Shown: piece by piece, positions 15,500-63,730 of the stretch | Position numbering within the stretch: the stretch's first letter is position 1 | Layout: each line of letters opens with the position of its first letter | NCBI RefSeq assembly: GCF_964355755.1 | Contig: NC_092675.1 | Coordinates: 4,870,312 to 4,934,311 of the forward strand | Reading direction: 5' to 3' | Length of the DNA stretch: 64,000 nucleotides | From: Antedon mediterranea | Lineage: Eukaryota > Echinodermata > Crinoidea > Comatulida > Antedonidae | Position numbers and translations under genes: made by a program | The notes under the pieces: model-generated | Databases searched by the model: none | What the model saw: the letters and a program-made list of their open reading frames with translations, nothing else | Told to the model about the DNA's origin: nothing

Positions 15500-16432
15500 C
15501 TAAACATTGTTTAATGTTAAATGTGTGCTGCCTTGTTCTCCTCTATTTTTACAACATCCAGTCTGAAAAATGTTGATCACTTCAGTTCGGAACTGGGATA
15601 AAGAAATCGTATAAATAAATGGATTAAGAGAAAAATTTAATACCACCAAGTCCACTGCAACATATTTTCTAATCCCTTTACTCACAAAAATATCTCCATA
15701 TAGAAAAACAATAATTGGCACAAAGCACACTATATAGGCCGTGCTCACAGCTATGAACACTTTTAGTGTTTTTACGTGTATGGATGATGTCATTTGATTG
15801 CTTACATTATTTTTCATTTTAACCAATTCGAAAATGATTCTTGTATAAATAAGTACCAGTATTAATATAGTAGATATACATACAACTGGGATTATATTTG
15901 TTGTAATTTTTCTTGCTAACTCTTCCTTTTCCTCTCCATCATCATCATCACATTGGATATTTTGAGTTATAATCTTATATAACATAATTAGCATTGTTGG
16001 ATGACACAGAATACCAAGAATCCAAGCAGACACCATCATGATTACTGTTCGTTTTACTGTGTAATTAGTTTCAAACCAAAATGGCTTTATAATCGCGAAG
16101 TACCTCTCAACCGAAATAAATAATACATTTACACTAGATGCCGTCGAGAGTGTAAACGTCGCACTTTGAAACCATAGAGTAATTCTATTGTAAAAACAAT
16201 CAAAAGGGGAGAAAGGTAATAATGATAATACAAAGAAAAGTAAACATCCTGTCGCATCGATTAATGATTGGTTGAAAATAAACCAGCGTGTAGTTTTACG
16301 AATGAAAACAACTCGATTAATAATGAGAAGTACTACAATATTTACGATGAAACCAAGAACGGACAAGGCACAGCCGATGTTGATCAGTGACTCGACCACG
16401 CCCAAACTCTCTTCTGTAATGTTCGAAGCCAT
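15500..16432 (-). CDS. Rhodopsin-like (class A) GPCR, copy 1, 310 aa, single exon
   Basis: Seven hydrophobic segments carry class A hallmarks: N1.50 in GFIVNIV, D2.50 in SLIDA, an ERY form of DRY (VERYFAIIKP), Trp4.50 in SAWILGI, Pro5.50 in IIPVV, a CFxP form of CWxP and NPFIY for NPxxY. The ATG at 16430-16432 gives a short N-terminus with a glycosylation site (NIT). The frame stays open upstream (MIFAKG... would need a non-ATG start), so this ATG was chosen. The normally conserved Cys at the top of TM3 is Ser here (FQSATF), while copies 2 and 3 have YCATF. The loop-2 Cys (NIQC) is kept. The ligand is unknown. Small lineage-expanded receptors of this type are often chemosensory or peptide receptors, which is only an inference here. 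Confidence 0.9.
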   Translation of the reverse strand: MASNITEESLGVVESLINIGCALSVLGFIVNIVVLLIINRVVFIRKTTRWFIFNQSLIDATGCLLFFVLSLLPFSPFDCFYNRITLWFQSATFTLSTASSVNVLFISVERYFAIIKPFWFETNYTVKRTVIMMVSAWILGILCHPTMLIMLYKIITQNIQCDDDDGEEKEELARKITTNIIPVVCISTILILVLIYTRIIFELVKMKNNVSNQMTSSIHVKTLKVFIAVSTAYIVCFVPIIVFLYGDIFVSKGIRKYVAVDLVVLNFSLNPFIYTISLSQFRTEVINIFQTGCCKNRGEQGSTHLTLNNV

Positions 16433-17843
16433 CGTCAGAGAGTTTCCTTTGGCAAAAATCACATAGGCCTATAGATGCTAGGCTGAAACAACTCAGTCTG
16501 TCCAACACCTCTAACAAAGTTTCTGGCCTCCAACAAGTTGAATACAGTAACGGTGTATGTCTCAAAATCAGATCAACTTGAATTCATGGCATAAAAAAAC
16601 AGAGTCTGGGTATACAAGATAATAGCGCAATGTGCACTCATCAGTCATCCATCCATGATTTAGAAAGTCGAACTTTAAACTTTTCTCAGAAAAAACAGCA
16701 GCAAGAGTAGCAACTGTACATCGAATTATTTTCTGATTCCAATCACCTTTATAGTTTCGAGTGCTTAAAAAATACTGAAGTTCGTCTGCACTCAAGTTTT
16801 ATATCCACTGCAGGAAATAGCCCATCTTCCGAATGGATACAACTATGACCCGGTACCAACACGATTGTAAATTAAAGCATGTCTCAAGCATGTATATTCT
16901 TACAAAACCATCATTGTTCAGACAGAAAACTATTTGGACTGTTTACAAACGTGCTATAAATATTTCCAAGCGACGAAAATATTAACCTTGGTTAAACAAA
17001 AAACTGAATAAGAATACATTGTTATTTCCTTGTAAAAATATTACCGATTTTGATTACCGCAATGATAAGAACATTTTGAGCACGTACTGATATTTGTGAA
17101 TCACAACAAAATGAAACTAACATTCACTATGTTCGCCAACGATTTGGTTGGAATACATTGTCCACTGAGATTTCATAAAAGAGACTCACAAATTGTCCTT
17201 ACAAAAATTTAAATATAAAATTACAAGGGAATGAGTCTGCTGTCAATATTTACCTACAGTTTACCAAAGACACATGGTTGCACATTACTATCAACAAATA
17301 ATGTTAATAACATAATAAGGTAAACTATATTAATATTGAATATTCATGTATGTAGTTCGCAAATCGCTACATAATTATGTATACCGTATACGAATTAAGA
17401 TATTTCAGTTGCATGAGATATTATTGTCTTTTTGAACCAATATCCTGATATTTTGGTGTATCCATGAAATGATTTGCACGTGATGTAGCATAGTAATCCC
17501 AATAGATGACATTGTATACAAATAATAAAACGATAAGAACAAAAAATCATAGTTATTGAATCTAGAAGAATTATACAATAGTTGAAATAGTTTGGACCGT
17601 ACAAAAAATAATATTAAATGACTAAATTAGACATAAAATATGTTTTAAATATACATAAATTGTACCAATAAGATAGTTTCATGAATTGTACCAATAAATG
17701 AAAACAATCTCTCTGTATGATGCATCCCAAACGAATGATAGTGTATCCATGAAAATGACAAGGTGTTATCCATGATATCACATGGTGCTATCCATGGAAT
17801 GACATGGTGTATTCCTGGAATACTATTATGGTAATGTATATCC
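16433..17843. other. GPCR copy 1 upstream flank, nearly identical in copy 2
   Basis: The sequence upstream of the GPCR start (about 16480-17330) matches 21752-22600 almost base for base. It probably contains the 5' UTR and promoter. A 75-codon open frame in both (16568-16795 and 21840-22067) starts at a TTG and shows no domain pattern, so it is not called as a gene. Confidence 0.55.
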
Positions 17844-20747: not shown

Positions 20748-21710
20748 CTAAACATTGCTTGATCTTATTACATTTGTGTTGCCTTGATCGATGTTGCCTT
20801 GTTGATGTTCTCCTATATTTTTACATCCAGTCTGAAAAATGTTGATCACTTCAGTTCGGAACTGGGATAAAGAAATCGTATAAATAAATGGATTAAGAGA
20901 AAAATTCAATACTACCATGTCCACTGCAATAAATTGTCCAATCAAATCTTTCGTTCCAGAAGATTTAACTCCATATAAAAAAACAATAATAGGCACAAAG
21001 CAAACTATATAGGCCGTGCTCACAGCTATGAACACTTTTAGTGTTTGTACTTGTATGGATTGTGTCATTTGATTGCTTACATTATTTTTCATTTTAACCA
21101 ATTCGAAAATGATTCTTGTATAAATAAGTACAAGTATTAATATTGTAGATATACATACAACTGGGATTATATTTGTTGTAAGTGTAATTGCTAACTCTTC
21201 CTTTTTCTCTCCATCACATTGGATATTTTGAGTTATAATCTTATATAATATAATTGGCATTGTTGGATTACACAGAATACCAAGAATCCAAGCAGACAAA
21301 ATCATGATTACTGTTCGTTTTACTGTGTAATTAGTTTCAAACCAAAATGGCTTTATAATCGCAAAGTACCTCTCAACCGAAATAAATAATACATTTACAC
21401 TAGATGCCATCGAGAGTGTAAACGTCGCACAGTACAACCATGTAGTAATTTCATAGTAAATCCCATAGTACAAACAATCAAAAGGGGAGAAAGGTAATAA
21501 TGATAATACAAAGAAAAGTAAACACCCTGTCGCATCGATTAATGATTGGTTGAAAATAAACCAGCGTGTAGTTTTACGAATTAAAACAATGCGATTAATA
21601 ATGAGAAGTACTACAATATTTACGATGAAACCAAGAACGGACAAGGCACAGCCGATGTTGATCAGTGACTCGACCACGCCCAAACTCTCTTCTGTAATGT
21701 TCGAAGCCAT
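20748..21710 (-). CDS. Rhodopsin-like (class A) GPCR, copy 2, 320 aa, single exon
   Basis: The start (ATG 21708-21710) matches copy 1 and the reading frame is intact. It keeps N1.50, D2.50, the TM3 Cys (LYCATF), ERY, Trp4.50, loop-2 Cys (NIQC), Pro5.50, CFxP and NPFIY. Against copy 1 the TM segments and intracellular loops hardly change, including IIFELVKMKNN and the TRWFIFNQS stretch. The differences gather in extracellular loop 1 (an extra YYGIYYEIT-type stretch), loop 2 (fewer Asp), loop 3 (GVKSSGTKDLIGQ in place of GDIFVSKGIRK) and the C-tail. That is what ligand-side diversification would look like. Of the three copies this is the one with every canonical residue, paired with an intact membrane-protein gene. 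Confidence 0.92.
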   Translation of the reverse strand: MASNITEESLGVVESLINIGCALSVLGFIVNIVVLLIINRIVLIRKTTRWFIFNQSLIDATGCLLFFVLSLLPFSPFDCLYYGIYYEITTWLYCATFTLSMASSVNVLFISVERYFAIIKPFWFETNYTVKRTVIMILSAWILGILCNPTMPIILYKIITQNIQCDGEKKEELAITLTTNIIPVVCISTILILVLIYTRIIFELVKMKNNVSNQMTQSIQVQTLKVFIAVSTAYIVCFVPIIVFLYGVKSSGTKDLIGQFIAVDMVVLNFSLNPFIYTISLSQFRTEVINIFQTGCKNIGEHQQGNIDQGNTNVIRSSNV

Positions 21711-23208
21711 TGTCAGAGAGTTTCCTTTGGCAAAAACTACCTATAGATGCTAGACTGAAACAACTCAGTCTGTCCAACACCTCTAACAAAGTTTCTGGCC
21801 TCCAACAAGTTGAATACAGTAACGGTGTATGTCTCAAAATCAGATCAACTTGAATTCATGGCATAAAAAAACAGAGTCTGGGTATACAAGATAATAGCGC
21901 AATGTGCACTCATCAGTCATCCATCCATGATTTAGAAAGTCGAACTTTAAACTTTTCTCAGAAAAAACAGCAGCAAGAGTAGCAACTGTACATCGAATTA
22001 TTTTCTGATTCCAATCACCTTTATAGTTTCGAGTGCTTAAAAAATACTGAAGTTCGTCTGCACTCAAGTTTTATATCCACTGCAGGAAATAGCCCATCTT
22101 CCGAATGGATACAACTATGACCCGGTACCAACACGATTGTAAATTAAAGCATGTCTCAAGCATGTATATTCTTACAAAACCATCATTGTTCAGACAGAAA
22201 ACTATTTGGACTGTTTACAAACGTGCTATAAATATTTCCAAGCGACGAAAATATTAACCTTGGTTTTATAAAACAAAAAACTGAATAATAATACATTGTT
22301 ATTTCCTTGTAAAAATATTACCGATTTTGATTACCGCAATGATAAGAACATTTTGAGCACGTATTGATATTTGTGAATCACAACAAAATTAAACTAACAT
22401 TCACTATGTTTGCCATCGATTTGGTTGGAATACATTGTCCACAAGATTTCATAAAAAAAGACCCACAAATTCTCCTTACAAAAATTTTAATATGAAATTA
22501 CAAGTGAATGAGTCTGCTGTCAATATTTATCTATAGTTTACCAAAGACACATGGTTGCACATTACTATCAACAAATAATGTTAATAACATAATAAGGTAA
22601 ACTATATTTATATTGAATATTCAATTTGAATAGCAAACATTCAAATGTAGTTCCTAAGTCGCTTAATAAATATTCATAGGTATACCGTATACAAATTAAG
22701 ATATTTCAGTTGCATGAGATATTATTGTCTTTTTGAACCAATATCCTGATATGGGAATGATATTTTGGTGTATCCATGAAATGAATGGCACGTGATGTAT
22801 CCATAGTAAATCCCAAAGGATGACATTGTATACAAATATTAAAAAGATAAGAACAACAAATCAATGTGATTAAATCTAAAAGAATTATACAATAGTTGAA
22901 ATAGTTTGAATCGTACAAAGGAAATAGTAATAACAAAATATAACTAAATAATATTAAATGATAACACAATTAGACATAAAATATGTTTTAAATATACATG
23001 TTAAAATATAAGACAGTTTCATAAATTGTACCAATAAATGAAAACAATCTCTCTGTATGATGCATCCCAAAAGAATGACAGTTTATCCATGAAAATGACA
23101 AGGTGCTATCCATGATATCACATGGTGCTATCCATGGAATGACATGGTGTATTCCTGGAATACAATTATGGTAATAATGAAAACATTTCTTCTGGTTTCG
23201 ATTCGTAT

Positions 23209-26678: not shown

Positions 26679-27620
26679 TTAAACATGGTTTAATCTAAAA
26701 TTTGTGCTGCCTTGTTCTCCTGTATTTTTACAACATCCAGCCTGAACAATGTTGATCAATTCAGTTCGGAACTGGGATAAAGAAACCGTATAAATAAATG
26801 GATTAAGAGCAAAATTTAATACTACCAAGTCCACTGCAATATATTGTGCAATAAAATCTTTACTTCCAGAAGATATATCTCCATATAAGAAAACAATAAT
26901 TGGCACAAAGCAAACTATATAGGCCGTGCTCACAGCTATGAACACTTTTAGTGTTTTTACGTGTATGGATGATGTCATTTGATTGCTTACATTATTTTTC
27001 ATTTTAACCAATTCGAAAATGATTCTTGTATAAATAAGTACCAGTATTAATATAGTAGATATACATACAACTGCGATTATATTTATTGTAATTTTAAGTG
27101 CTAACTCTTCCTTTTCCTCTCCATCATAAATAGGCCTACATTGGATATTTTGAGTTATAATCTTATATAATATAATTAGCATTATTGGATTAGACAGAAT
27201 ACCAAGAATCCAAGCAGATACCATCATGATTACAGTTCGTTTTACTGTGTAATTAGTTTCAAACCAAAATGGCTTTATAATCGCGAAGTACCTCTCAACC
27301 GAAATAAATAATACATTTACACTAGATGCCGTCGAGAGTGTAAACGTCGCACAGTAAAACCATAGAGTAATCTCTTAGTACAAACAATCAGAAGGGGAGA
27401 CAGGTAATAATGATAATACAAAGAAAAGTAAACATCCTGTCGCATCGATTAATGATTGGTTGAAAATAAACCAGCGTGTAGTTTTACGAATGAAAACAAC
27501 TCGATTAATAATGAGAAGTGCTACAATATTTACGATGAAACCAAGAACGGACAAGGCACAGCCGATGTTGATCAGTGACTCGACCACGTCCAAACTCGCT
27601 TCTGTAACATTCAAATCCAT
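26679..27620 (-). pseudogene. Rhodopsin-like GPCR, copy 3, with one in-frame stop
   Basis: The ATG lies at 27618-27620 and the frame runs to 26679 without frameshift. A single TAA at 27375-27377 falls in extracellular loop 1, where copy 1 has AAT. Everything after it stays well conserved: TM3 Cys (FYCATF), ERY, NIQC, CFxP and NPFIY. Loss is therefore recent, or the stop is a segregating allele. Loop 2 has its own insertion (RPIYDGEEK). Its partner gene (29125-30384) is intact. Confidence 0.9.
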
Positions 27621-28513
27621 CGTCAGAGAATTTCCTTTGGCAAACAATGAAAGGGGGAGGAAGGTAATAGTAAAAATATTTTCTGAAACGTTCGAAGGTA
27701 AACTCTTATAGATCCAAATCCGAAACGTGACTCATTCAGCCATGTCCAACACTCTGTCCCTGCTAGAACTTTCGACAAATCGGCATATATCTTTTTTCTC
27801 CTTGGGTAGGCCTACATCTATGACCTCAACAGATCAACTTAGAATTCATTGCAGAAACCGTATCAATAGCGCAAATGTTAACTTAATTTAGTCACCTATA
27901 GACTGTAAAGATTTAGAAAGTATATCAAAATACAATTATAATCTACTCCAACACGATTCGTAGGCAACATTCAATTTTCCAATCGCCACACCAAATAAGA
28001 TTTGTATATTTGCTGATTCAGCTTTTATATGCCTTATAGTTTCGAGTTCAGGAAATATAATCATTGTTTTATTTTATTTACACTCAAGGTTTTACCACTG
28101 CAGGAAGTATATCCACTCCTCTATAAACTATTTATAAATCTAGGAAGACGATTTTAAAAAAAAAATTAAAAAAATTGTTAATGTAAAACCAAAACATGTT
28201 TGGCAGATGATAATGAGCACGCGAGTGTTCGAGTATTTCACAACCGTTTTTAAAACAATCAATGTACCTGTAGACCTATTACACGATTCTCAGTGCTCTC
28301 CCCATACAATTTACCCAGTATCTGGCATATTTTGGTAATAGAGGACCTCATTTGTATGTATCACAATGTGGTTCCGTTCCTGTATCTTTTAATGTAAGGT
28401 TAGGCAAAGGTTAGGTTATGGATATAGTTGCAAAAATGTAGAACAGTACCGAGAATCGAGTGTCTATGTTATAATTTGGATACTTTTATCAACCAAGTTT
28501 AGGGAGAGATTTT

Positions 28514-38812: not shown

Positions 38813-40978
38813 ATGGCAAGTATATTTGTTAAAGAACTAGATGACCGTGTACTGGAGTGTGCTATTTGCATGAACAGATTTAATCGACCGAAAACGCTAC
38901 CATGTCTTCATAGTTTTTGCCAGAAATGTTTGAAGGACTGGGTGGAAAAGAACAATCAGTTAAGTTGTCCCACTTGCATGGATAACTTTGAGATTCCTGA
39001 CGGTGGACTTGAAAGTATTCCCCCAAACACCTTTGTGAATAATCTTCTAGAATATGTAGATCACCTCGAAGGCGGTGAACTTATGTGTTCCTATTGTACA
39101 CTTGCTGCTGTTAAGTTTTGCAAAGACTGCTCTCAAAACTTTTGTGCTACATGCGTTAAAAGTCACAGTGAAGTGGACGTTCTCAAATCACATACCTTAT
39201 ATACGGACGATGAACTCAGAAAATTAACACTAGAACAGCGTCAGTTATTGTCAATGCACTGTAAGAATCACACGGATCAATCCCTTAAATTCTATTGTAA
39301 TACTTGTAAAGAAGCTATCTGCGTCGAATGCATTATCATCGAACATAAAACGTGTCACATTACCGATAATGTTGTAAAGATATTAGATGCATTTGAGGTA
39401 TTCAAGAAAACTGCTGCCGAGTTGATCGATGAAGGGGAAAAACGTGAAACTAAAATTCAAGAGGAGAAGCTGAAGAGGAAGAAGAAGGCTGACCAGCTTA
39501 AATTGGAACGTAGCTTTTGCGAACAAAGAATTAATAGATCCGTGGATGAAGCGATTCTTAAACTACAAGAAGAACGCAAACAGCTTATAGATAGTCTTCA
39601 GACGATGTATGATGGTAAGAAAGTCCCCGTTCTTAAAATGATTGATCAATTTGATGCTGCTAGTAATGATTTTGTACATATAAAGCAGCTTGTTCATCTT
39701 TCTGTCAACAATTCAAACCCGGCGACAGCGTTAGACGCAAAAGATCAACTGTTAGACAAACTAAAGAAAACCGTTCATTCGTACCCAACCGTTGAAGAAC
39801 AAGTTAATGGTGCTCTTTTACATTTTGAAGAGACTCAATCTCTCAAGAAAAGTATTGGACATGTTACTGAAACACTTGAAGTACACAAACTTTTTGAAAT
39901 TAGGAAACAGGATGAAAACATCATTGTTACCAAAAACCAACCATTCTTTGTTGAAATAGCCACTCCAATTTTAGAAAAAGTAGAAGACATTTCAGCATAT
40001 CTGATAACGGTATCTGGAAAGCAAGAAACTCCAGTGGTGTTTCAATATCACGAAAACGGAATTTACCGAGCCGAGTGCAGCTGCTCGGAGCTAAGCGAGT
40101 TACATGTCAAATTTAACGATGTTCTTATAAAGGGATCTCCTTCAGTAATCTGTGTAGAGAACGATGGTTTGGTTCGGACAATCCGTGACTTTGAAAACAT
40201 CGAATTTGAAAACCAACACGGCAAAGCTACAGATGTAATGACTGACGATGGATATCTGTTAGTTTCAATGAATAGTCGGGAAGTTCTGAAGTTTGATTCT
40301 AAAACAGGAAAGCATGTAGATACCATTAACATGCCGCCAAAATGCCACGTTTACATGATGTGTAGAGCCAAGGCAGACGGTTTAATAATATACAGTGACA
40401 GTAGAAATAAATGTGTAACGGTATGTGAAAATGACGGCACTACCATACGATCATTTGGAAAAGGTTTCTTAACGTTTGCCGCAGGCCTTGCTTTGGATGA
40501 GTGTACACGTACTCTGTATGTTGTAGATCGTACTGCCCACTGTGTAGTTAAATTCAATTTCGACAACGGGGAGTTTTTAGAAAAAATTATTTCCAATAAT
40601 GAAGGGGAGTTCTACTTCAATAGACCCTACCGTGCAGCCATGCTTGGCAACGGCATTGTCATAACAGATTGTAGAAACAATCGGCTACAGTTGTTAGATA
40701 AGAACACCAATGTTGTAACAGTTCTTGTGAAACATATTGATAATGATATTAATTTAAAGTGTCCACTTGGTCTAGTAGTTGATGACGATGGGAACATTAT
40801 TGTTTCCGGTCACGGAATGTTACAAGTGTTTAATGGTGATGGAGAGTTTGTTAGAAGAATTGATACTGGAAACGACAATCTTAATATACCGTGTGGTCTA
40901 GCGGTTGTATCATACAGACCTAGACGGGTAGCTGTTGCAAATTATGGCAACAGCTGTGTCAAGATATATAATTATTAA
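38813..40978 (+). CDS. TRIM-NHL E3 ubiquitin ligase-like protein, 721 aa, single exon
   Basis: Domains in order: a C3HC4 RING (Cys16, 19, 31, His33, Cys36, 39, 52, 55); B-box 1 (about 92-130, MCSYC...FCKDC); B-box 2 (about 152-190, CKNH...YCNTC...CVEC); a Lys/Glu-rich coiled coil (about 195-320); a filamin-like region (about 370-455); and NHL/beta-propeller repeats to the end (DVMTDDGYLLVS, GLALDECTRTLYVVD, GLVVDDDGNIIVSG). This is the TRIM2/3/45/56/71-type layout. RING-type TRIM proteins transfer ubiquitin, and the NHL propeller binds RNA or protein partners. The ATG was chosen because the RING starts 15 residues later. The gene lacks introns, as in many expanded invertebrate TRIM families, which may reflect retroposition. 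Which vertebrate TRIM it matches best cannot be settled here. Confidence 0.95.
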   Translation: MASIFVKELDDRVLECAICMNRFNRPKTLPCLHSFCQKCLKDWVEKNNQLSCPTCMDNFEIPDGGLESIPPNTFVNNLLEYVDHLEGGELMCSYCTLAAVKFCKDCSQNFCATCVKSHSEVDVLKSHTLYTDDELRKLTLEQRQLLSMHCKNHTDQSLKFYCNTCKEAICVECIIIEHKTCHITDNVVKILDAFEVFKKTAAELIDEGEKRETKIQEEKLKRKKKADQLKLERSFCEQRINRSVDEAILKLQEERKQLIDSLQTMYDGKKVPVLKMIDQFDAASNDFVHIKQLVHLSVNNSNPATALDAKDQLLDKLKKTVHSYPTVEEQVNGALLHFEETQSLKKSIGHVTETLEVHKLFEIRKQDENIIVTKNQPFFVEIATPILEKVEDISAYLITVSGKQETPVVFQYHENGIYRAECSCSELSELHVKFNDVLIKGSPSVICVENDGLVRTIRDFENIEFENQHGKATDVMTDDGYLLVSMNSREVLKFDSKTGKHVDTINMPPKCHVYMMCRAKADGLIIYSDSRNKCVTVCENDGTTIRSFGKGFLTFAAGLALDECTRTLYVVDRTAHCVVKFNFDNGEFLEKIISNNEGEFYFNRPYRAAMLGNGIVITDCRNNRLQLLDKNTNVVTVLVKHIDNDINLKCPLGLVVDDDGNIIVSGHGMLQVFNGDGEFVRRIDTGNDNLNIPCGLAVVSYRPRRVAVANYGNSCVKIYNY

Positions 40979-41765: not shown

Positions 41766-42417
41766 CCCTAAGTAAGTTCACGTGACCGAATGTCTTCCTT
41801 GAATTAGTTTTGTGGTGAGGTTGTATTCCTCAAATTATGTTATTGTGTTTTTATCAAGAGACACAATGCTCAAAATATTAATTTACATCCGGTTTCAGTT
41901 TTGTTTATTGGAATTTGTCAGACATACCCGGACTGACAACTGAATAACAATACTATATAGATTTGAACCTGGATTTCTATGACGTAAGCTAAACAATTGT
42001 ATTTAACTTAGCTAGCCTTCACTTCTATTGTTTACATAGTTTGAATGCGAGAGAAGATAAAAAAAAAAAACAAAAAAAAAAAAACGTAATGCAAGTTAAA
42101 TTGTAGGCTGTATCAAATCTTCAAACGTTTTTCTCAAGATGATTCTGAGTACATTGTACAGATTATCCTATATTTATATTTCAAAATACAACCGGTAGCA
42201 TGTTGCGATGAAACGATTAGTCTGAAGCTGTTTACCAAATGTTCTAACATGGTCCGGCATGTTTCTTTTTTAAAAGAAAAATTCTCTCTATCATTTCTAT
42301 TGTAAATAACGTTTCATAAAACAAATCTTATGTTGATAGAAAAACCGGATTGATTTGAGTGATACACTTCCGAAACTAAAATGATCTAACTGCTAACTTC
42401 TTAATATATAATAATGC

Positions 42418-43791
42418 TCAATTTCCATTATCAGTATGTATTTCATCTTTGTTTTGTGTATTTTCGTTATTATTATTTAAACTTTCTGTAGATTTATGGA
42501 ACGCTTCCTCACCATGAGTTACAATTAGATAACCAGTGTCATCTTCACTAATAGCAATACTTGAGCATAGCGTCTCGGTACTTTTCATGCTCCACTCCTC
42601 AATAGTTGTATAATTATGCTCACTTCCATCTTCACTAAGCGTAGGCGATATATTGTGATAAATATCTGAGTCCTCATCGTCCGAATCAACACATAGTGAG
42701 AGATAATAATTAGGCTTAGCAGGGAGTTCAAATAATTCTTTTATGTCAGCGTACATATTATCTGAATCATCACTAGTATCACTGGTTTGGGAAGATACAT
42801 CTTCAATATGATGGTATAACCCCTCATCCTGCTTCTTCTCATCGTCATCATCTTCCGACAGTTCATCTATGGTGGAATACCCACATTCATCTGTTTCTGA
42901 TATTCCAGATTCGTTGTTTACTTCATCTTCTTCACTAGTTGCAACAGTGTCATCAGTAGGCGTATTTGCTCCTTCTTCCAATTGTTCAATTGTCTGCTTT
43001 GACTTCATGTCATGGACATTTTGTTCAGTAACGTTGACATTTATTTCGCTATCATCGTTCACCTGCCCATCATTTGTATTTTCTACCATTATTTCAGTAA
43101 GACATAGACCTGTAAATAATTATAATTTGTCATCATTATATCATATTCATAAGGTAAATGTAATATCATTTGGCAAATAAAATTGTGACCAGGATAGCCC
43201 CCAAAAACCAATTACTCAGAGCATTTCCATGGTAACATGAATTTCTGGGCCGAGTAAGTTGTTTCGTATTATTTAATCAACCAAAAAACTGGCAATTCTT
43301 ATATTTAACATTGTCATATAATCAATAGGTACATATTACTTGAAATGACCTGCATTCAAATGGTTTTAAATAAAACTGAAAGTTATATTTTTTTAGTTTA
43401 AAGTTTAGAATACATACTGTACTGCATGCTTAAATAGGCCTATCTAGGATATTAGTGCTTACCGTCGGTTTGATCCGGTAGGTCATCCGACTCATCTTCA
43501 TGCCTAACCGTTTGTTTAATGGTAGTTCGACGAACACAGCATTTAAACACGCCCAATATCACTGAAATTACTGTTGAAATTAGTACCAATATACCAGTAA
43601 ATGTCGCATAATCTGTACGGGAAACAAGGAAGTAAAATAAATATCGTTGTAATCAAACATTACATACGGAAAAGAGAAGTTTTGTTTTAAAATTATAATC
43701 GAAATAAAAAAATAGATTAAAGATACATAGCATGGGATACATTGAACATTATCGACAATAAGGAAATGTTAATTGGCTACCTACCTGACAT
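42418..43791 (-). CDS. LAT/PAG-like transmembrane adaptor with a multi-tyrosine tail, 282 aa
   Basis: Exons are 43785-43791 (ATG TCA G), 43463-43612 and 42418-43109. Phases join exactly, and a TGA lies in frame just upstream of the ATG. The product has a six-residue outside part (MSDYAT), one TM helix (about residues 7-25, GILVLISTVISVILGVF), then K-C-C-V-R-R: a basic stop-transfer with a Cys pair typical of palmitoylation. About 250 acidic, Ser-rich residues follow. The tail holds spaced tyrosine motifs: YSTI (130), YHHI (151), YADI (172), YYLSL (187/188), YHNI (203), YTTI (219) and YLIV (246), several preceded by Asp/Glu at -3. YHN also fits the Grb2 SH2 form pYxN. This is the plan of vertebrate LAT, PAG, LAX and SIT adaptors. 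Homology is not shown and convergence is possible. Many Ser in acidic runs fit CK2 sites. Confidence 0.82.
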
Positions 43792-44709: not shown

Positions 44710-47700
44710 TTAACCCAGAAAGCTCTTAGATGGTATCTCCTTATTTCCCTCAACAGCAACAAGTAGAATCATTTCTTTACTTTCAAGAAGTTTAATGAAA
44801 GCATTAGCCACGTCATCAGTTCTGTAAAAAAAAATCGTTATGTATACATTTTAAAGGAAATATAATACTATATATTAGACTGATGATAAACACAAGGAAA
44901 TAATTATTATATTTGAAATATGATAATACGAACTGAAACATCTTACGATAACTTAGGAGTGGCATCTCGTTTTGCACTGACAAATACTTTTTCACTTTCG
45001 TCGTCAACAACGAAGTCCTCTTTAATAAGCCGTGTAGCAACAAGTGATGGACAAAGAACTTTGATAGTGATTCCATTATCTTTACATTGCACTTGTTCCT
45101 GTTGGACATTAATCATAATATAATATAATTTTATATATTTGAAGCAAACTGATATTGTCACAGACCAGGTTGGATATAAACACGTATATTAAGCATTATC
45201 GGCAACAACATGTTTGTATACGTATCCGGACAACTACCCCCTGGACAATGACCACCTGGACAACTACCACCCGGACAATGACCCCCTAGGACAACTACCA
45301 CCCGGACATTTACCCCCTAGGACAACTATCCTATAGGACAACTACCCAATTAACACAACTCCCACCCGGACAACTACCCCCTAGGACAACTACCCCCTAG
45401 GACCACTACCCCCTAGGACAACTACCCTCTAGGACAACTACCCTCCTAGGATAACTGCTATGCCCCTAGGACAACACCCTCTGAACAACCACACTTATAT
45501 CATGACACCTACACCTTATTAGGTTATAATTACGATCTTGTAAAACTTACTGAACTTCAAAACATAGGGAGAGAGATTGATCTTAAATGAAAGCTTTTGA
45601 ATTTTTTAATATGCGTATCGTCAGCAGTTATTTTACATTAAACGAGAATCGATCAATTATTAAAACGTATTCCAATCTTGAAAAATAAATGGGTGGCTTA
45701 TTTTATTCTTGTGTGACATGAAGATGCCGTATATAAATCTAGGAGCATACAGTTTACCTAGCTGCACCAGTCAATCAAACAGTATTTCATTTGAGATCAA
45801 TCTCTCTCCTTATGTTTTGAAGTTCAGTAAGCTTTACAAGATTGTAATTATAACCTAAGGTGTAGGTGTGGTTGTTCAGAGAGTGTTGTTGTTCTAGAGG
45901 GGTAGCATAGCAGTAAGACTAGAGGGTAGTTGTAAGATAGTGGAGCAGCCCTTTTTATCGATACAATTGGCCCGATTTTGTTCTCTCTTTTCTTTTTCAA
46001 AACAAATGTTTTACCGTAAGAGCTTATTTTATGCTGTTTAATGACATTATACGTTTACTACTACAAGTCCAGTAATAATGGAATATTGGGTTGGCTGTTA
46101 CTACTTCATAGAAGAACTTTAATTAATTTGTTTTTTAAATTTTCTCCCCACTCATGAGAAAATATGACAATAAACGTTTTTAGAACCTAAGAACTTAAAA
46201 AAATAAATATCGCTACAGTTATTACAAATCTTAGGTACGTCGATATTTTAATAATTTCACGTCAAATATTGTTAAATGTATAGTGTGGTACAACGCCCTC
46301 GTAGTCATCTCTTCACACACAATTTGATTTTACAATACAATTGGCACCAAAAGAAGCAGCTTGTTAATTTGGTTACCAATCGTAATTGTCCAAAGCTGTA
46401 GTTGTTCCTAGTGGGTAGCTAGAGAGTAGTTTTCCTAGGGGGTAATTGTCCTAGGGGGTAGTTGTCCTAGAGGGTAGTTGTCCTAGAGGGTAGTTGACCT
46501 AGGGGGTAGTTGTCCTAGAGGGTAATTGTCCTACGCGGGTAGTTGTCCGGGGGTTAGTTGTCCTAGGGGGTAGTTGTCCTAAGAGGATAGTTGTCCTAGG
46601 TGGTAGTTGTCCTAGGAAGGTGATTGTCCAAGGGGTTATTGTCCGGGTGGTAGTTGTCCGGGTGGTAGTTGTCCAGGGGGTAGTTGTCCTAGACCCGTTT
46701 GTATATCCTTGTCAAAATAGTCGATCGGAACAATTTTTTGGGAGATTTATTCACTCATTAAACTACTTCATTATCATTATTGATATAGTAATTAAAAATA
46801 ATTGTTTCCAATGCATGTATAATTGCGTAACATCATGAAAGAATGAATACTGAAAGTAACATATGAATCATACCTGTAGTGCCACAGAGAAGGAGCGTAT
46901 CCCGTGTTTAGTAGCAGTGTAGGCTGCCATGTAAGGAACACACCTTAAACCTAAAACAGTTTAAATGTTAACATAATATCCGTCGAATACTAATCCTCTA
47001 GTAACTGGTGTGGGTTTGTATGAAAACACGGTAAAACATCCAATGTATTGTATTACCGAATATTAGTATGGATCACACTTGGAATGAAGAAGGTCTGTGA
47101 AGGATTTGTCGTACTATTTAGGCTAGGCCTATACTCACTTGCAACCGACGACATATTGACAACAGTTCCACCGTTTCCACCATTCCTAGTTCCCATCATA
47201 TCAATTGCTAGGTAAGTTCCATGCATCACACCTTTCTACAAACAAAAATGATTTTAGTCAGTTCAAGTTGTCTTAGGCTTGGTTCCCACTAGAGACGCAA
47301 CGCAAGGACGTCACGCAACGTTAGTGATTTGACCAATCACAAGCGATGGATTATTCTAACTAGCGCTTGTCATTGGTCAACTCGCTTGCGTCTACGTTCT
47401 TGCGTTGTGTCCTAATGGGAACCACGCTTTAGGGAGCATGACAGCTGATTAGTTTGTTGATCAAGGTGAGAGGGATGGACGGGGAGAAGGTTGAGGGGAT
47501 AATGTTGAACATTTTGGAAAGAATGATTTGGAAAGTTGATAATTGTTATTACTCACCAGGTTTACGTCTATCATGAGAGACCAATTAACCTCATTGACAA
47601 TACCTGCATTATTACAGACAATATCCAGTGTGCCAAAATGTGCCTTAGCCTGTTGAAATGCTTCTGTACAAGAAAAATATTTATTTTTCTGGTTATTGAA

Positions 47701-53200: not shown

Positions 53201-56200
53201 GGTATCTTGAATTAATACAGAAAAACAGTAAAAGAAAAAGAAATCAAATCAGTAAATGTGCTTAAAATAATTCGAAAGGTTGATTTTAAATGATAAAATG
53301 GTTTGTGAATCATACAGATTGAGGTAATTTGCTCCGAAGTGAAATAACAGAGGGATAGTATGATGATTTAAATGCGGCCTTTGTGCGAGAAAACGGAATA
53401 AAAAATGTTTCCGGGTGATGGAAACGTACATATATATTCTGATAAAACTAATAATTAGGAAGCTTTCGATTTGCGACGATCTTAAGAGCTTGTTCACATT
53501 AGGCCTATATGTTAATTCATTTGCGCATACATAATAGGATGCTTCCCTTACTTGATCCCTTGAAACAGTTTCCAACTAATGTCTGGTTAATGATCATTGC
53601 GTATGCTTCATTTTTTTCAACAAGGCACCCACTGTGTACGGAGAATGATGGTGTTAGAAAAAGATACGTGCAAATAGTTATTCCATTTTATTGTAGACCT
53701 ATGGTTTGAAGCCTTTTGGACCGAGAATACGATGTTACTGTTATGTTTATCTAATGCTTGCGTACATTAGTTATTCATCCAGGGCAGGCTGGTGGCTGTG
53801 CTATTTTTAGAAATGAGTAAGAATATAAAACGGATTGGTCATAGGCCTAACAGCCAAAACACGACAATTCCGAAGTAAAATTGTACTATAAATCATCGAC
53901 AAGTTTATACTTCGAAGTTGACGATATTCTAGAGTAAATTATAATAAAACTATTGCCATTTCTCGATAAAAACATTATAAAATGCCCTCCAAAATATCCG
54001 ATGTTATTTAGACAACAGTTAGAAAAGATTTTTCGTATTTTAGTGATAAAATTAGAAAACGATAAATACTGTTATATCAACGTCAATGTGTCATGTCAAG
54101 TAACATAGCAGTCAATGCATTAGCTGTTACAATGTGAAACGTAGTTATAACTATGTGAAAGTTATAAGGTGAAACAATTTACAATTATTGTATTATCTGT
54201 ATCAAGTAAAACGTTATATTTTTAATTCTAAATCAAAGCTTATAAGAATACAAACTCTAATTCGGAGCATGCGCAGAGTAATTTCAATCACTTGAGTATA
54301 TTTTCAATACACATTACATGTTGAAAAACACGTGACACATCTAGAGACTAAAGTGACTTAGTAAACGATAATTCTCGGTTCCTGCAATGCTTTCAAATTA
54401 CTCAATGGATAGAAAAAGTAACATCTTTATTTGTTAGTTTTTTTTCTATTCGAAAATAAATCCCTTTTTGTGTTCGGTCAGTGCTAATTTTTGAAGTTAA
54501 AATAAAGCGATCTGTGTAAATAAATGCATACAAATGATAGAATGTCATTAATATAAATGTACCAATGCTATTGTATTTATTTGTGTTTTATTTAGGATTC
54601 CGTCCACACTGCTATATGTTTATTGCATACCCATCCTACTTACAATTGTCATGTGTTGATTCACATAATCTATGTCGACGTGCAAGCGGAGGTATCGCCA
54701 AGATCGACATGAACCACGAACTTTATGACTTCTCCAGTATCTTAGCAAGTAATCTTGTTACTGATTACCAAATAAAGTATTCTTACAAAACCATAGCTGG
54801 TGATCTATGGTACTATAACTCAGTCATACAGAACAAGTGCATGGATGTGCAGTCCTTAAATGTATATGGTGGTAGTGATGTACAGGCATCTAATTGTAGA
54901 GGGACATTCAAACCAGTGAATTCAATCTTGTGTGAAAACGCACGTAAGTATCATGACGAACACAAGCTATGGACGACGGCGCTGTTTCGTTAACTAATGA
55001 AAAAGCAGGGAAGATTGAAATGGTAATTTCAGTCTTCCATGAATGTATGATATACAAATATGTTTGGTTTCCTTGCCATTCATCAATATTACAAAAATAA
55101 ACATTTTTTACCTGCAATTTATTAATTATTATTATCAATAAGATAATTGATTTTAGCCTAACGGTATACACTTATTAAGAAAACTAACAAACAGGTGTAT
55201 TCTAAAAATAGCTACTACATTTGGTAAGGAAACAGTAATATGTAGCATTCAAAGTTACGATGTATTAATGTAATTAAACATTTTGAATCTGTGAAGGTGT
55301 CAAAACTACATTCATGTATTAAATGGCCTTGTAAAAACAAAAACAAAAACGGAAACTCCTATTTTTTGGTCAAATTAGAAATTTGAACTTGACTTCCACA
55401 AATTGTTTCACTTTGAAAAAAAATACAGGTCAGTTATTTAGACCCATGTGATATTGATTTCCAGGTCCATTTATATTCTTTCGTTATTAATTCAATTAGG
55501 TAAAAGTAGTTTGCTACATAACATTGTACAAAGATCAATTACATAGTTTATAGTAATTAAAACAACACTTGCCATTAATTAATTTACCATTTTGCGATAT
55601 CATTGTGATAATGTAATTTTAAACTGGAATATTTAAAAGTGTATCATAATGGTTATAGCTGATTTAAAGGCCATATAGGTAATATAACTTGAATATTACA
55701 TTTCTGCTATTTTTATTCAACTTCAGATTTTTATTTTCATGATATAGCAAAAATTATCCACCATATATCCACCATATTTTTTCACCTTCTAGGGAGTTAC
55801 AAGACATGTTATTACATTAGGTTAAACTACCTAACTACTGAAAAAACGTCTTCCTGGCTTTTATGGCCGAATTTTGCCAAATTTTGTATTTGACCATATT
55901 AAGGAAAATTCGTCATGATTTCTGTTACAAATATTTGATTTATGTATAATTAACCAGATATTATATTTAAAATTCATGCCTGTACCTGAGCTTTAAGGCC
56001 TAACAAACAAAAAAAGATTATTGTGGTAGGTCCTGAATTGTGGATATAATTATAATATTAGATATGTATATGTTACTATTTCTACATTTCAGCTTTACCA
56101 ATAAATTCATATTGTGCTCCACTGACAGCAAAGCCAACAAAGAAGCCCCGATCTCCTACAACAGTCGTACGAAAAGTAACCCAAGCAATGCCAAAAAGAA

Positions 56201-59200
56201 CACCAAGTAGCCCCAATGCACCAACAGCAAATGTGTTTAACAGACCAAACGTCGGTCCAGGCCTGACTCCACCGCCAACTTGGTGGCCTCAAGACGTTAC
56301 CACGAAAAATGCAGTAACAAAATCAAAATTTAAAAAGAAGAAAATGGTAGTGAATCATCAAGAACCTCACAACAAAAAGAAAAAGAAGGGTAATGTAACA
56401 CATATAGTCACTGGTATATTTTTCGTTGGTACAATAGTTATGGTTGGATTCGCTTTACTGATTGGTTGTTTCTTCAGAAGACGACATGATAATCGAACAG
56501 ACATTTTTAAGTGGTGAGTATTTAGAACACCAGAGAGTTATTTAAATAATTAATGTTTTGTAACTATATTAAACTACTGTGGAGTAGCTTTGCGTCAGGA
56601 AATTGACGATTTTCATACCTCTAGACCACCGAGGTATGAACGCCTGTCTAGTGATCTGGAGGTCGTGAGTTCGAGTCTCACCCGAGAATTACTTACGAAT
56701 TCGCAATTATTCTCAAATGTACTTAGTATGAAGTACAAATTACGTCAGAGTAGGGCAAAACATCTGACCAATTAATGTTTTGTTTTCTTTACTTAGATAT
56801 GTTTGTATGATTGTATAAGCCGATGATTCTTATTTTTGTCAAAATAATATTTAAATAAAGGTAGTGTGTCAGATAGGGCGACCTATAAAGTGTCAAAATC
56901 ATGGTATATGTCAAAAGGGCACGGAGGAATTAACAGCTTAATTTCAAGTTTAAAAATTAAGTTTTCTTTTGAAATTGTTCGGCGTTTTAAATTATTAACT
57001 ATTAAATTACGATCTACTTCGAGTTTTACAGTTTTCACTGTCTTTTGAAATATAATAATAATAATTCAAGTGAATCAAACTCATTTGTATAATTTGCATT
57101 ATGGCTAAAAGTTGACATTCGAATTGTATTCCCACCTTTTACAATAGTTGCATTAGATCTGTATGCTGAGGTCAGCTATTTTTTTTACCTTCTTTCATAA
57201 ACAAACATTTGTTTACACATGTTATCTATAAGAGCATAATTCTAAAAGAAGGCTTAATTGCAACATTGTTTGAAGTCATTTTGCGTCCCTGGAAAAACAT
57301 ATTACTATACGTATTATGCTTTTATATTAATTACGGTTATTAATAGAAAACAGCTCATTCGTTGAGTTAATATATTATAATAATGATTAATAGTTTGGGA
57401 ATAGTGTCAATAAACAGTTATAAACTAGACCCACTAAATATGACCTTTGTTAATGCCCCAATGCCCCATAAATGTTCCTTTACTCACGCACTCTTACAAA
57501 CTTAGTTGTTTGTTGACGTCAATCTTTCGGATGTAGGCTATAGACTGCTCTTCTTGTAGTAGTTGGCGTTTCATAGTATTGTGTCAATGCGTGCCTGTCT
57601 CCAAACACGTTATTTCCCGTGATGACGTATAACAATTTTATTCTATTTGGCAGTATTGCCAAGTACCTTGTTTTGTACTATTTGAATATAATATAACCCA
57701 GAAGGATGTGACCGCCAAATGTGTGTGTAAAGGAAACTGGGGGCTTAGCTTTTGTATTCGATTGCGTATTAGTTAAAAAAAGTTTGCTTTAACCTTCCTA
57801 TTCCTAGTTTCATTAATTATTGTTTGATGTTTATAAAGCATTATGAAGTAAAAATACTAAAAACCGTCCCAGTAGAATAGATGATTTAACTGCATCACCA
57901 CATTCGTTATAATTTCCAAGTGGTTGGTACATGTTTGCACATTGACGTCTGCAATTTCCATGTTATCGTACAGATTTTTTGTTCGCAAATATACACCTAC
58001 CAGGTCTACTAATTTTCAGAAAAATCGACATATGGTGACGCTTATCAAAATATCGAGCTATCTTTATCACTATGGACCGGAATTGTCAGAGTAACTACAA
58101 AGGCAAATTCAAACAGACGAGCGGTAACGGTAAGCGGAAAACCATGTAGCTTGTTCCACGTAGAATCTTTATTTATCTTGAGCGTTGTGTAAATGGTCAT
58201 TAGGAATAACATTTTCTATGTTTTAATTGCTTCAATAGATATACAGATTATTATGTGGAACAAGCTACGCGGTTTTCCGCTTACTGCTATCGCTTGTCTG
58301 TGTGAACTGGCTATTATAGGCACTATACGGTACTCTACATTGGGCTAGTGTTTTTTATTGGTTTCCTAACATTGGGATAGTTGGTAGACATAATTCATCA
58401 ATTTTGTTTTAAATACGAATACACTTGTTAAGTTTCCTTTAATTACCAAGTCTCCTTTTAATTCCAAAAAAATTAAATTGTTTATTTGCTTGACTGTATA
58501 CTACAATGAACACGTTTATTTATAAAATATATAGAAATATTTTATTAATGTTAGCTAGCTTTTTTTAGTGACTTTTCTTTCGTTGATGGTTTTTAGTCGC
58601 GTGCAACGCGACTCTACAGCACACTCTATCGGTCGGTTGGTCGGTCGGTCGGATGGTCGGTCGGTAAACACTAATTCAAATTTGAGCACGCGGCTGCAGC
58701 CATGTATATCGCCTTGTTTCTGTTGTTGCCTTTTTTGTATTATAAAAGTTTGAAAGTTAAAAATAAAGCCTCATTTTAATTAACACGAAATAATTAAAAA
58801 ACTTCTAAAAATGATATAACCACATCACATCGTATTTGTAATCAAACATGTAATAATAATGTTAGACTATTTTACAGGTCAAACGCATCGGAGCTTGCAG
58901 ACAGAACCCAGGAATACGAAGAGGTCGATGCTAGGAATGCTGTAAGTGATCATGTAGACGGATATTCAGTTATAAATACAAAAAGATACCAAAACACACG
59001 AATTGATTCAGTCAGTCAGAAACTTAGTCAGGAGGATTGTAGGCGATACAGGTTATCAAAAGCAATGAGCACTGATGTAAAATACGGTGACGATTTAAAA
59101 GAGTTACACTATCAGCAAGATATAATGAAAGCTCAGAATGCGTCGCCTGGCCGCCTACACAAAACACGCGTGCGCAGTTATGACGTAGACCGAACGAGCA

Positions 59201-59442
59201 GTGGAATATCAGTCTGTGGTTCTTCGAGATCATCTGCTCTGTATGAAATCCGTGGTTTGGAATATGATTACGCCTATACAAGCAATAACCATGTATTTAG
59301 AAGTCCTTTTAATCAACAATACATTGGAAACGTCCAAGAACCGTCATATGATTATGCGTACGCGACATCGAAATGGGTGAAGAAAACGAAGAAAAATAGA
59401 CCAAGAAAAAAACGAGTCCACCATTTACATGGTGATATATGA
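50297..59442 (+). CDS. Single-pass receptor-like membrane protein with tyrosine-rich tail, 523 aa, five exons
   Basis: Exons are 50297-50394, 52926-53065, 54596-54943, 56093-56513 and 58878-59442. All introns are GT-AG and the phases agree. A signal peptide (RWFRVLCTLLLVQHCNA) opens the protein. The ectodomain (about 20-205) has about a dozen Cys and no family I recognise. A Pro/Thr/Lys-rich stalk follows, then a TM helix (about 299-323, IVTGIFFVGTIVMVGFALLI) with an RRR stop-transfer. The tail of about 200 residues carries YEEV (a Src-family SH2-type motif) near the membrane, YEIR at 458, and two copies of YDYAY (465-469 and 493-497), then a Lys/Arg-rich end. Tyrosine phosphorylation is inferred. 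The second exon has two overlapping GT donors; only GTAGGT at 53066 keeps the frame. Confidence 0.8.
51908..51980 (-). other. Degenerate tRNA-like sequence
   Basis: The minus strand has TTGCTCAGTCGGTATGGCAT (A-box-like) and GGGTTCTGATCCCGG (B-box-like) at the right spacing. The anticodon arm does not fold cleanly. It is probably a tRNA-derived SINE head or a tRNA pseudogene in the first receptor intron. Confidence 0.45.
56590..56700 (+). other. tRNA-like fragment in the last receptor intron
   Basis: CCTGTCTAGTGATCTGGAGG is followed by GTGAGTTCGAGTCTCACC, a good T-arm/B-box hairpin. The 5' half of a cloverleaf is not convincing, and an inverted pair CATACCTC/GAGGTATG lies just before it. Confidence 0.35.
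58090..58320. mobile_element. Foldback MITE in the last receptor intron
   Basis: GTAAGCGGAAAACCATGTAG through CTTGTTCCAC on the left is mirrored on the right by GTGGAACAAGCTACGCGGTT through CCGCTTAC. Outer parts (AAACAGACGAGCGGTAACGG) also pair. The loop is about 100 bp. Confidence 0.8.
58600..58730. repeat. Dispersed (GGTC)n-bearing repeat, copy 2
   Basis: GTGCAACGCGACTCTACAGC is followed by GGTTGGTCGGTCGGTCGG and AGCCATGTATATCGCC. The order matches the copy at 41697-41765. Confidence 0.6.
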
Positions 59443-60689: not shown

Positions 60690-63600
60690 GCATACACCCA
60701 GCACTACAGCTGTCCCGGGCAAAGAGTCGAATGATAGTATACACGATTGGGTAGGCATCCTTGGAATTGTAATTGCATTGTCTGTAGCCTTAGCTGCCCT
60801 TTACGCTGCAATAAAAAAGAGGTTGGATAAAAGGTATAGTAGTATTTTTACACTATTCACCGTTGATTAACACGATCGCAATTATCACATAACGTCTAAG
60901 TTCTTTGTAACTTGCTATAGTGTGTAGTTTGGTTTCCATATGAAGACAGCGCAATGCCACGCACGTAAATTAATCAATCATGACGCGATAGATCATCTGA
61001 ACTCTCACTTGTGATTGGTTAAGTCACTTGGGCGGCACGACGTGCGTTGCGTCCTAGTGTAAACTAAGCTTATACACCATGTGCAGCTTTTTAGCGTAGT
61101 CAAACGATAGAAGCATGTCGTGAATGAGTTAGAGAGGCATTATTTCTATTTCGACAATAGTCCATTTTTTGTTTTTTTTTATAAAAAAAATTAGGTTTAA
61201 ATGATTACCTAAAACATACGTTTGCGCGTATTAACGTTTAATTTGCTAGTTGTTTTGATATGGAGCTTTCCAATTGCGACAACCAAATGACCAACGTTGA
61301 TAATTTATTGTGTGCAACCGGAGATATTGGGACGTGTTTTCTCACTTCCCACTCAGACACTGGTTTCTAGGTTTGATGATTTCTAGGTCCGGGCGGTGAT
61401 TTTTTTTCCTACATAAGACCTCATGTGAAAGATAGCCGAACTACTCTTCCTAAATATAACTAAACCTAACCCTCTAAATAATCTCTCTCTCACTATAAAG
61501 TAAATGTGATTCGAACCCCATACATTGACATGTAAAGTCCATAGTCTAATCCACTAGACTACACAGACGACTCGACAGAAAGCGTTTGCATAAGCGAATT
61601 GTAGTTACCTCAATTCTTACCTTATGCATATGACTAATGCATATTCATGTTTATTTTGTAACGTTTCACGAGGGGTCTCTAACTTATGTACGAAAAGAAA
61701 TATCGCGTCCGGGCGACGACTGGCGACACATTGATTGACCTGTGACCTTAGGTTGGTATTCGGTCGTCCCAAATCGAAAGCTCCCTTAATAATGTTTAAA
61801 ACAATTGTAATTGGTACGATGTTCTTGTATTTACGAACTAGTGATTACAATGACATGGTGATTAATTATGACGAAGAGGAGGAAGTGGATACCGAATATA
61901 AGCATAGCGCAGGTAAAGACAATTAAAAAAAATTTCCATCGATCTTCTGATAATTAATTTCTTTTCCCGAATACTGTGGCCAGCCGCATCCACAAATTAC
62001 GTCAATATTAAAAGACACTATCCTTGCAATAATGCATATTTTACATAACATGCAGTTTGTAAATTAGATAAAACAAATTCTAGAGATAGGATTACAGAGG
62101 AGACTTATTATATAAACTATGGGAAAATGTTTCCCTTAGCTAGACCCATTTACACTAGGGCGATAACGATCGACGATAAAAAGATAAATATGCATTTTTC
62201 ATACTTAAAACAAAAGAATTTTAAAAAAGTTTTCATGCTAGAACTATAGGATTATCATCTAGGCCTATGCATCTATAATATTTCCACACGTCCAATCAAA
62301 TGACGTCATGATTAGTAAGAGCAATAATATCGTTACAAAACAACGATTTTATTGTTTTATTAATCATGACGTCATTTGATTGGATTTTCAAAAAATATTA
62401 TCTTTATCAAATACAGTATACATGATTATTTTATAGTTCTAGAACGAAAAACTTTTATAATTTCCTTCGTTTTATTCAAGAAGATAATGTTTATCTATTT
62501 ATCGTCGATCGTTATCGCCCTAGTGTAAATGGGCCTTAACGTCGTTTTTAAATCATTTGACCATGACACTTATTGTTTGTATTTTAAAATGGCGATAGTT
62601 AGGAATGCAATGCTTTTAATCAATATACTAATAATAATAAAAACAAATTTTCTGTTGAATTGAAGAATACACAAATGATTACTCGGACATGTACAAGACA
62701 AACTTTGAGGGAGAATACGTGCATTTAAGCCTCCATGATAATGTGGTTACTATCACCACATCGCCTGCAGGTTAGTATTCGTTTATGTTTTCCTGTCTGA
62801 AAAACCCAAACAATTTGTTTTTGAATGCTCCTTCGATTTACATGAGGCTACATAGGCCTAATATAAATAATAAAATAAATACATTTTATTTTCCTGCTCA
62901 GCTTCAACACGAAGAAAAGGAGTCCTGAAGCACACTTGGGGAACTTTTCATTTCGATAAAATACGGTTGCAAATGTTTATTATTAGTGTTAATTAATAAT
63001 AACTTTCAATTTGTGTTAACATATTGTAAAATAATCACTAATATTTATGTATTTTAAGGTGGGCCTATACGATATACTTGATGGATCAATTTAGATTAAT
63101 AAAGATGACATAAAAGATGTTTGATGTTTGAATACACCCTCTATAATAGCCAAGAAGCTACAGTGTGATAGAGGGCTTCCAAGTGTTAACACAAAAACAC
63201 TTTTACAAATGACATTTGGTTGACACTACGAGGCCAAACATTATTGTATTATTTCTGTTATTATTTTGTTATTATGTAACACGACGTGGCTATTCCATCA
63301 TCCCACCACCAGCGTACTGAGAATTCTGTATATTTCTCGTTAATTCTACCAATTGATTTTTTACGTAACATTTAAATAATTAGTTAGATAAAATTATAGA
63401 TAGATTAAAACTATCTATCACAGAATGAAAAACGTAATTCACAAATTAGGAGGAAAACTGAAACTTTCTCAAAACAAGGTTTTATATGGTAAAATCATAC
63501 TTCTTCTTTTCTTCGATTTCTTTTGTTTAGTTTCACAAGATTCTGATGGTAAAAAGGGCAAAAAAGGCAAAAAAATTAAAAAATCGTCTGCGGATGTTAC

Positions 63601-63730
63601 TACCACACCAAATGAAGAGAACGGTAAAAAATACGAGCCGCCGCCATTTGAGTCTGTATATGAATATGGAGTAGTCAATGCTATTTATGATGATGGGATT
63701 TCTGATATTGGCAGATACACGTACACCTAA
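60690..63730 (+). CDS. Single-pass membrane protein with YxxM, YxN and YxxL tail motifs (5' end not found)
   Basis: In-phase exons are 60690-60833, 61842-61912 and 62666-62770, then either 62902-62996 (stop TAA) or 63531-63730 (stop TAA). Both final acceptors fit the same phase. The first exon seen encodes a Ser/Thr-rich piece, a TM helix (VGILGIVIALSVALAALYAA) and KKRLDKR. The next two give a short acidic tail with YNDM and YSDM (PI3-kinase p85-type YxxM), YTN (Grb2-type) and YVHLSL (ITIM-like YxxL). The 63531 end adds a Lys-rich run plus YEYGVV and YDDG; the 62902 end lacks tyrosine. No start codon or signal peptide was found. The first acceptor needs a phase-2 donor, which exon 50297-50394 of the neighbouring gene would supply, but a shared transcript is only a possibility. 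Confidence 0.6.
60925..61075. mobile_element. Foldback MITE with CACTAGGACGCAAC-type end, copy C
   Basis: The right end on the other strand reads TTTACACTAGGACGCAACGC. The left end (GGTTTCCATATGAAGACAGC) is a diverged match, and CAATCA-type words face each other inside. It is related to the elements at 47278 and 49385. Confidence 0.55.
61503..61570 (-). other. Degenerate tRNA-like sequence
   Basis: The minus strand has TAGTCTAGTGGATTAGAC (A-box-like) and GGGGTTCGAATCAC (B-box). An imperfect anticodon stem closes a loop TTTACAT, which would give a UAC (Val) anticodon. One stem mismatch and a poor acceptor suggest a pseudogene or SINE head. Confidence 0.45.
62147..62540. mobile_element. MITE of about 390 bp with long CCCATTTACACTAGGGCGAT ends
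   Basis: CCCATTTACACTAGGGCGAT, continuing into AACGATCGACGATAAA, at the left is inverted at the right end (about 62495-62537). Further in, AATCAAATGACGTCATGATTA is mirrored by TAATCATGACGTCATTTGATT, so the whole element folds back. It sits in an intron of the gene at 60690. Confidence 0.88.

Follow-up and report, generated by a model that had tools for sequence, protein, structure and literature searches.

In PAG1 (Cbp), the vertebrate Csk-binding transmembrane adaptor, nine of the ten tyrosines have I, L, V or M at position +3 and none is part of a YxN motif. The binding of Csk by PAG occurs via one such phosphotyrosine (PMC6082945). The PLC-gamma site of LAT is PGYLVV, located within DDYHNPGYLVV and carrying Gly at −1 (PMC8085316), and LAT orthologs have been described from most vertebrates (PMC10079008). 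The raft transmembrane adaptors (raft TRAPs) LAT, NTAL, LIME and PAG are defined by a juxtamembrane CxxC, while LAX, SIT and TRIM are without palmitoylation cysteines and mainly non-raft (PMC2803307). The raft part of the plan is therefore not common to the latter three proteins; a first-pass annotation of the DNA analyzed here had ascribed it to LAT, PAG, LAX and SIT together, which is valid for LAT and PAG but not for LAX and SIT.

This class of scaffold, which organizes lymphocyte receptor signalling, has been described from vertebrates, and among open-licence papers no description of a LAT or PAG adaptor of invertebrates was found. In amphioxus, partners of the SLP-76 complex were found but no LAT-like molecule, and an unknown membrane-bound molecule of the same function was suggested (PMC5431462). 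The same animal has BbLcLRR, an ITIM-bearing receptor that is phosphorylated by Lck and carries motifs such as DDYATV (PMC8211107).

Here, we describe a gene of the crinoid Antedon mediterranea, located in a 64,000-nucleotide stretch of DNA (the window) from a genome with a G+C content of about 33%. We put at roughly 55% the probability that the gene is genuine, present in one copy, and encodes a transmembrane adaptor of type III (N-out) acting by the mechanism proposed below.

Gene model and coding evidence

The gene is located on the minus strand and comprises three exons (43791-43785, 43612-43463 and 43109-42418) with GT-AG junctions throughout. Both introns are in phase 1, and the predicted spliced product has 282 residues. 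Exon 2 (43463..43612) encodes outside residues, a transmembrane (TM) helix, recognized by its hydropathy and the absence of charge, and a juxtamembrane KCCVRR. Its acceptor at 43612 is CCCGTACAG/AT (ending CAG/AT), and its donor, after 43463, is G/GTAAGC. Exon 3 (42418..43109), with the acceptor TTTACAG/GT at 43109 and a TGA stop at 42420-42418, encodes the cytoplasmic tail, which is acidic and has seven of its eight tyrosines in Yxx[I/L/V]. A candidate polyadenylation signal (AATAAA, minus strand, 41904..41909), read by eye, is present ∼0.5 kb past the stop. The model is weakest at the proposed exon 1 (43785..43791, minus strand), which codes only for Met-Ser and one further base (seven coding bases, ATGTCAG) before the donor GTAGGT. 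This donor matches eight of the nine consensus positions, and two out-of-frame ATGs (43825 and 43813) are found ahead of the exon. The coordinates, junctions, protein and motifs given in the first-pass annotation were all reproduced from the DNA.

The tail exon scores as coding: its codon log-odds are +51 bits in frame, compared to −40 to +5 in the other frames, and none of 3000 noncoding stretches of the same length reached its score. For the TM exon the score is not decisive because of its shortness, being matched by 5% of noncoding stretches. Synonymous codon choice alone gave no coding signal for this gene, so the coding score mostly reflects amino-acid composition. The length of the tail ORF (233 codons) is only moderately rare: in 60 windows simulated with an order-4 Markov model the longest ORF had a mean of 143 codons, and in one of the 60 it was longer than the tail ORF, at 278 codons.

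A chance open frame or a decaying gene would be consistent with the longer ORF in that one simulated window, with the silent synonymous codon choice and with the lack of a paralog in the genome, but given the log-odds above all noncoding controls, the motif array and splice junctions that are canonical and intact, it would surprise us if the locus were not a functional gene. A second reading concerns the 5′ end. Since a phase-1 acceptor, as in exon 2, is typical after extracellular modules (e.g., Ig or EGF), we tested whether the model overlooks 5′ exons, with exons 2 and 3 closing a receptor that has an ectodomain; the tiny size of exon 1 and the tyrosine tails of receptor-like genes encoded close by on the opposite strand are in line with this. 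Against it, the 1.1 kb upstream contains no candidate ectodomain exon, and beyond this lies a dehydrogenase gene, complete and in the same orientation. Between the dehydrogenase stop and the TM exon, only one minus-strand ORF is longer than 44 residues, and it enters the TM exon in another frame; this interval also has just one good phase-1 donor following an in-frame ATG, the GTAGGT of exon 1. Two other first exons, reading MK at 44281 and MKKQQQKSGRSSGGK at 44017, were rejected, both having a poor donor and no signal peptide. Farther upstream, where frames were judged by coding scores, the best-coding minus-strand frames are dehydrogenase exons, a frame of 57 residues at 52.5 kb and sequence antisense to an exon of the plus strand. 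Any ectodomain would have to be spliced in from past the complete dehydrogenase gene 1.1 kb upstream, and only a single good phase-1 donor follows an ATG; a large ectodomain is therefore unlikely, and we consider the missed receptor improbable.

The dehydrogenase gene is a short-chain type with frames at ∼49680, 48206, 47778, 47220, 45107 and 44823 and a stop near 44711, identified from a Pfam adh_short match on one frame and from coding scores; judged by eye, we take it to be of the 15-hydroxyprostaglandin-dehydrogenase type. One of its introns contains 16-bp minisatellites with the unit GTAGTTGTCCTAGGGG (45228-45456 and 46426-46692, on opposite strands), and inverted copies of the sequence neighbouring them are found around 45500-45900.

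The predicted protein and its relation to LAT and PAG

Under the exon 1 model, the outside segment is MSDYAT, i.e., about six residues. It is followed by a single transmembrane helix, FTGILVLISTVISVILGVF, with no charged residues and a hydropathy (19-residue window) of up to 2.5, and by adjacent cysteines at the inner membrane face, KCCVRR (FKCCVRR in context). The tail of 254 residues, of which 69 are acidic and 13 basic, has tyrosines at 130, 151, 172, 187, 188, 203, 219 and 246 (n = 8). Seven Yxx[I/L/V] motifs, YSTI, YHHI, YADI, YLSL, YHNI, YTTI and YLIV, make up a putative docking array in exon 3 (Tyr130-Val249; 42520..42879, minus strand), with sites spread across 117 residues at spacings of 21, 21, 15-16, 15-16, 16 and 27, and with an acid at most five residues upstream of six of the seven motif tyrosines. 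The spliced product thus contains the six outside residues, the one helix, the juxtamembrane Cys-Cys and the seven tyrosine motifs, one of them a YxN (YHNI), that had been noticed earlier, and the spacings were correct on recomputation. Prolines are very few. A structure prediction for the tail from the single sequence, with no alignment, was mostly unstructured and of low confidence (mean pLDDT 37.6), a result consistent with disorder, though weak evidence for it; the acidic tail is probably disordered.

The motif array is rare by chance. I, L or V at +3 in seven of the eight tail tyrosines was reached by one in 200,000 residue shuffles (six in 200,000 when M and F at +3 were also counted), and I at +3 in five tyrosines by four in 200,000. 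Three or more Csk-type motifs occurred in 133 of 100,000 shuffles.

The short extracellular segment (again dependent on exon 1), the one helix and the long tail with its seven motifs correspond to the TRAP plan. The protein is like PAG1 in its short outside part, single helix, juxtamembrane cysteines and long tail, and in having nearly all tyrosines in YxxI/L/V, several of them of the Csk-binding type. It differs from PAG1 in its one YxN (PAG has none), in its scarcity of prolines, and in having CC (FKCCVRR) instead of the CxxC palmitoylation motif of the raft TRAPs LAT, NTAL, LIME and PAG. With LAT it shares the very short outside segment, the membrane-proximal cysteines and the acidic tail, and two of its sites, a YHN and a GYL[I/V]V, are similar to the DDYHNPGYLVV of LAT. 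However, LAT is proline-rich and has five YxN among ten tyrosines, and where a LAT-type Grb2 scaffold has several YxN sites, the crinoid protein has only YHNI. Since its motif habit is that of PAG (in which YxxI/L/V/M predominates and YxN is absent) rather than that of LAT, it is more likely to act like PAG, by positioning Csk and Src kinases at the membrane, than as a LAT-like Grb2 scaffold. BbLcLRR is similar in being an invertebrate deuterostome membrane protein with tyrosine motifs, but it has a leucine-rich-repeat ectodomain, while the crinoid adaptor is without a visible one.

Sequence comparisons did not support a common descent with LAT and PAG of vertebrates. In pairwise alignments with reference sequences, the score was reached by tail shuffles at a frequency of 0.036 for LAT (3.6%, a weak alignment), 0.296 for PAG1 (30%, a similarity no greater than that due to composition) and 0.482 for LAT2. 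Neither the LAT profile PF15234 nor the PAG profile PF15347 matched the protein up to E 10, and neither matched the genome, in searches that proceed exon-wise and can miss weak matches (PF15234) or were run without a positive control (PF15347). Pfam as a whole gave only chance matches up to E 10, including PH_trem at E 0.012 (under its cut-off), and a PDB sequence search gave zero matches. No paralog was found: a protein search of the crinoid's own genome up to E 10 returned only the gene itself. A DNA match on contig C5 (49 bases, 90%) proved to be AT-rich sequence beside a homeobox exon and was rejected as a paralog. The proposal of a LAT/PAG-style scaffold outside vertebrates has to be divided: the plan stands (helix, cysteines, motif array, SH2 genes), while family membership is not supported by Pfam or by the alignments. 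The LAT/PAG-style architecture is supported as an analogy, and, with no detectable common ancestry, the design has probably arisen independently in this protein or diverged very far.

Candidate SH2 partners, proposed mechanism and rival readings of the tail

At least 53 SH2 exon matches were identified in the genome and typed by comparison with reference SH2 domains. Among them are two Csk-type exons (63-64% identical to the reference), two Grb2-type exons (about 71%) and SHP2 exons (66-79%), as well as exons of the Src, PLC-gamma, p85, Shc, Crk and Syk types, so partners for a PAG- or LAT-like scaffold are encoded in the genome. The two Csk-type exons (C6:3449612 and C6:3441370) are separated by 8 kb and oppositely oriented, at a distance of ∼1.4 Mb from the adaptor gene; Csk is apparently duplicated in this invertebrate genome.

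The DNA contains the gene structure, the helix, the motif array and the partner genes; from these we infer expression, palmitoylation, phosphorylation, binding and the direction of signalling. In the proposed mechanism, the helix, probably together with palmitoylation of the cysteine pair, would keep the acidic, probably disordered tail at the inner side of the plasma membrane. The tail tyrosines, in their acidic contexts, would be phosphorylated by Src- and Syk-type kinases, and the phosphotyrosines would then collect SH2 proteins at the membrane. The assignment of motifs to SH2 domains is a prediction from consensus knowledge: YSTI, YADI and YTTI match the preference of Csk, and YHNI that of Grb2, while TGYLIV, with Gly at −1 as in LAT, may by resemblance be a PLC-gamma or SHP-type site and also has the ITSM form. 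The Csk preference was reportedly determined by Songyang et al. in 1994, a study listed in PMC3514216.

Three neighbouring pairs (Y172/Y188, Y188/Y203 and Y203/Y219) fit the loose form YxxI/L-x6-12-YxxI/L, and for this reason Syk recruitment is a live rival: the protein would be an ITAM-like chain in which a Syk-type kinase docks, by its tandem SH2 domains, on neighbouring YxxI/L pairs phosphorylated at both tyrosines. An x12 spacer is functional in FcgammaRIIA, and on C6, at 0.54 Mb, the genome has a pair of SH2 exons separated by 2 kb, of which the stronger match is nearest to the Syk N-SH2. The likeness to ITAM chains (FcRgamma, DAP12, CD3zeta, FcgammaRIIA) is limited to these pairs, however. 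The tail has no tight ITAM, with zero pairs at x6-8 or x6-9, and it is longer, with more sites, scattered over their 117 residues; ITAM partner chains such as DAP12 and CD3zeta have a charged residue in the helix, whereas the helix of the adaptor has no acidic residue for pairing with a ligand receptor. The ITIM form [I/V/L/S]xYxx[I/L/V] has no match in the protein, and one ITSM form, TGYLIV, is present. We regard the ITAM-like chain as unlikely, though a serious competitor; the earlier claim that the spacing is too wide for classical ITAMs is correct for x6-8, but the dismissal of ITAMs drawn from it is too strong in view of the loose form. The YxxI/L/V repeats of a membrane protein could also be endocytic or lysosomal sorting signals instead of SH2 sites, as YxxI/L/V also serves endocytosis (AP-2) and all seven motifs fit the YxxPhi signal of AP-2 and AP-1. 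Yet such signals are present in one or two copies as a rule, and the seven motifs here, distant from the membrane, set in a tail that is strongly acidic and in six cases preceded at short range by an acid, fit kinase substrates better, which makes this reading quite improbable.

If the SH2-docking adaptor is the correct reading, an invertebrate would combine a PAG/LAT-style adaptor with Src, Csk, Grb2, SHP2, PLC-gamma and Syk-type proteins, and the design would then predate adaptive immunity or have arisen independently of it. A tentative generalization, possible but with the odds somewhat against it, is that deuterostomes outside the chordates possess a transmembrane docking adaptor of their own, with little or no relationship to LAT and PAG, by which modules of Csk, Src, Grb2 and PLC-gamma are brought to the membrane; such an adaptor would correspond to the membrane recruiter sought in amphioxus without success (PMC5431462). 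A defined 282-residue protein is available for testing.

Other genes of the window

Two further genes with tyrosine motifs are located on the plus strand. The receptor-like gene at 54541-59439 has a cysteine-bearing ectodomain exon, C-type-lectin-like by eye and with no Pfam or PDB match, a TM exon (56094-56514) and a tail exon (∼58880-59439) with EYEEV, GYSVI, LYEI and YDYAY. The gene at 60700-63730 encodes a probable single-pass protein, with a TM exon near 60700-60834 and small tyrosine-rich exons containing YNDM, NDYSDMY, YVHLSL, VYEYGVV and YDDGI. These two tyrosine-tailed genes and the adaptor gene, all within 22 kb, may form a signalling neighbourhood.

Nine contigs sum to ∼302 of the 354 Mb of the genome, which suggests eleven chromosomes; feather stars are known to have eleven chromosome pairs. 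Within the window, an intronless RING/B-box/NHL protein (TRIM-NHL type) is encoded on the plus strand by a 728-residue frame (38816-40975). Three near-identical tandem genes for rhodopsin-type GPCRs are found on the minus strand (15503-16468, 20751-21740 and 26682-27731), the third with its reading frame in two pieces, and a DUF4562 exon (PF15123, E 6e-20) is located on the same strand at 13290-13628.
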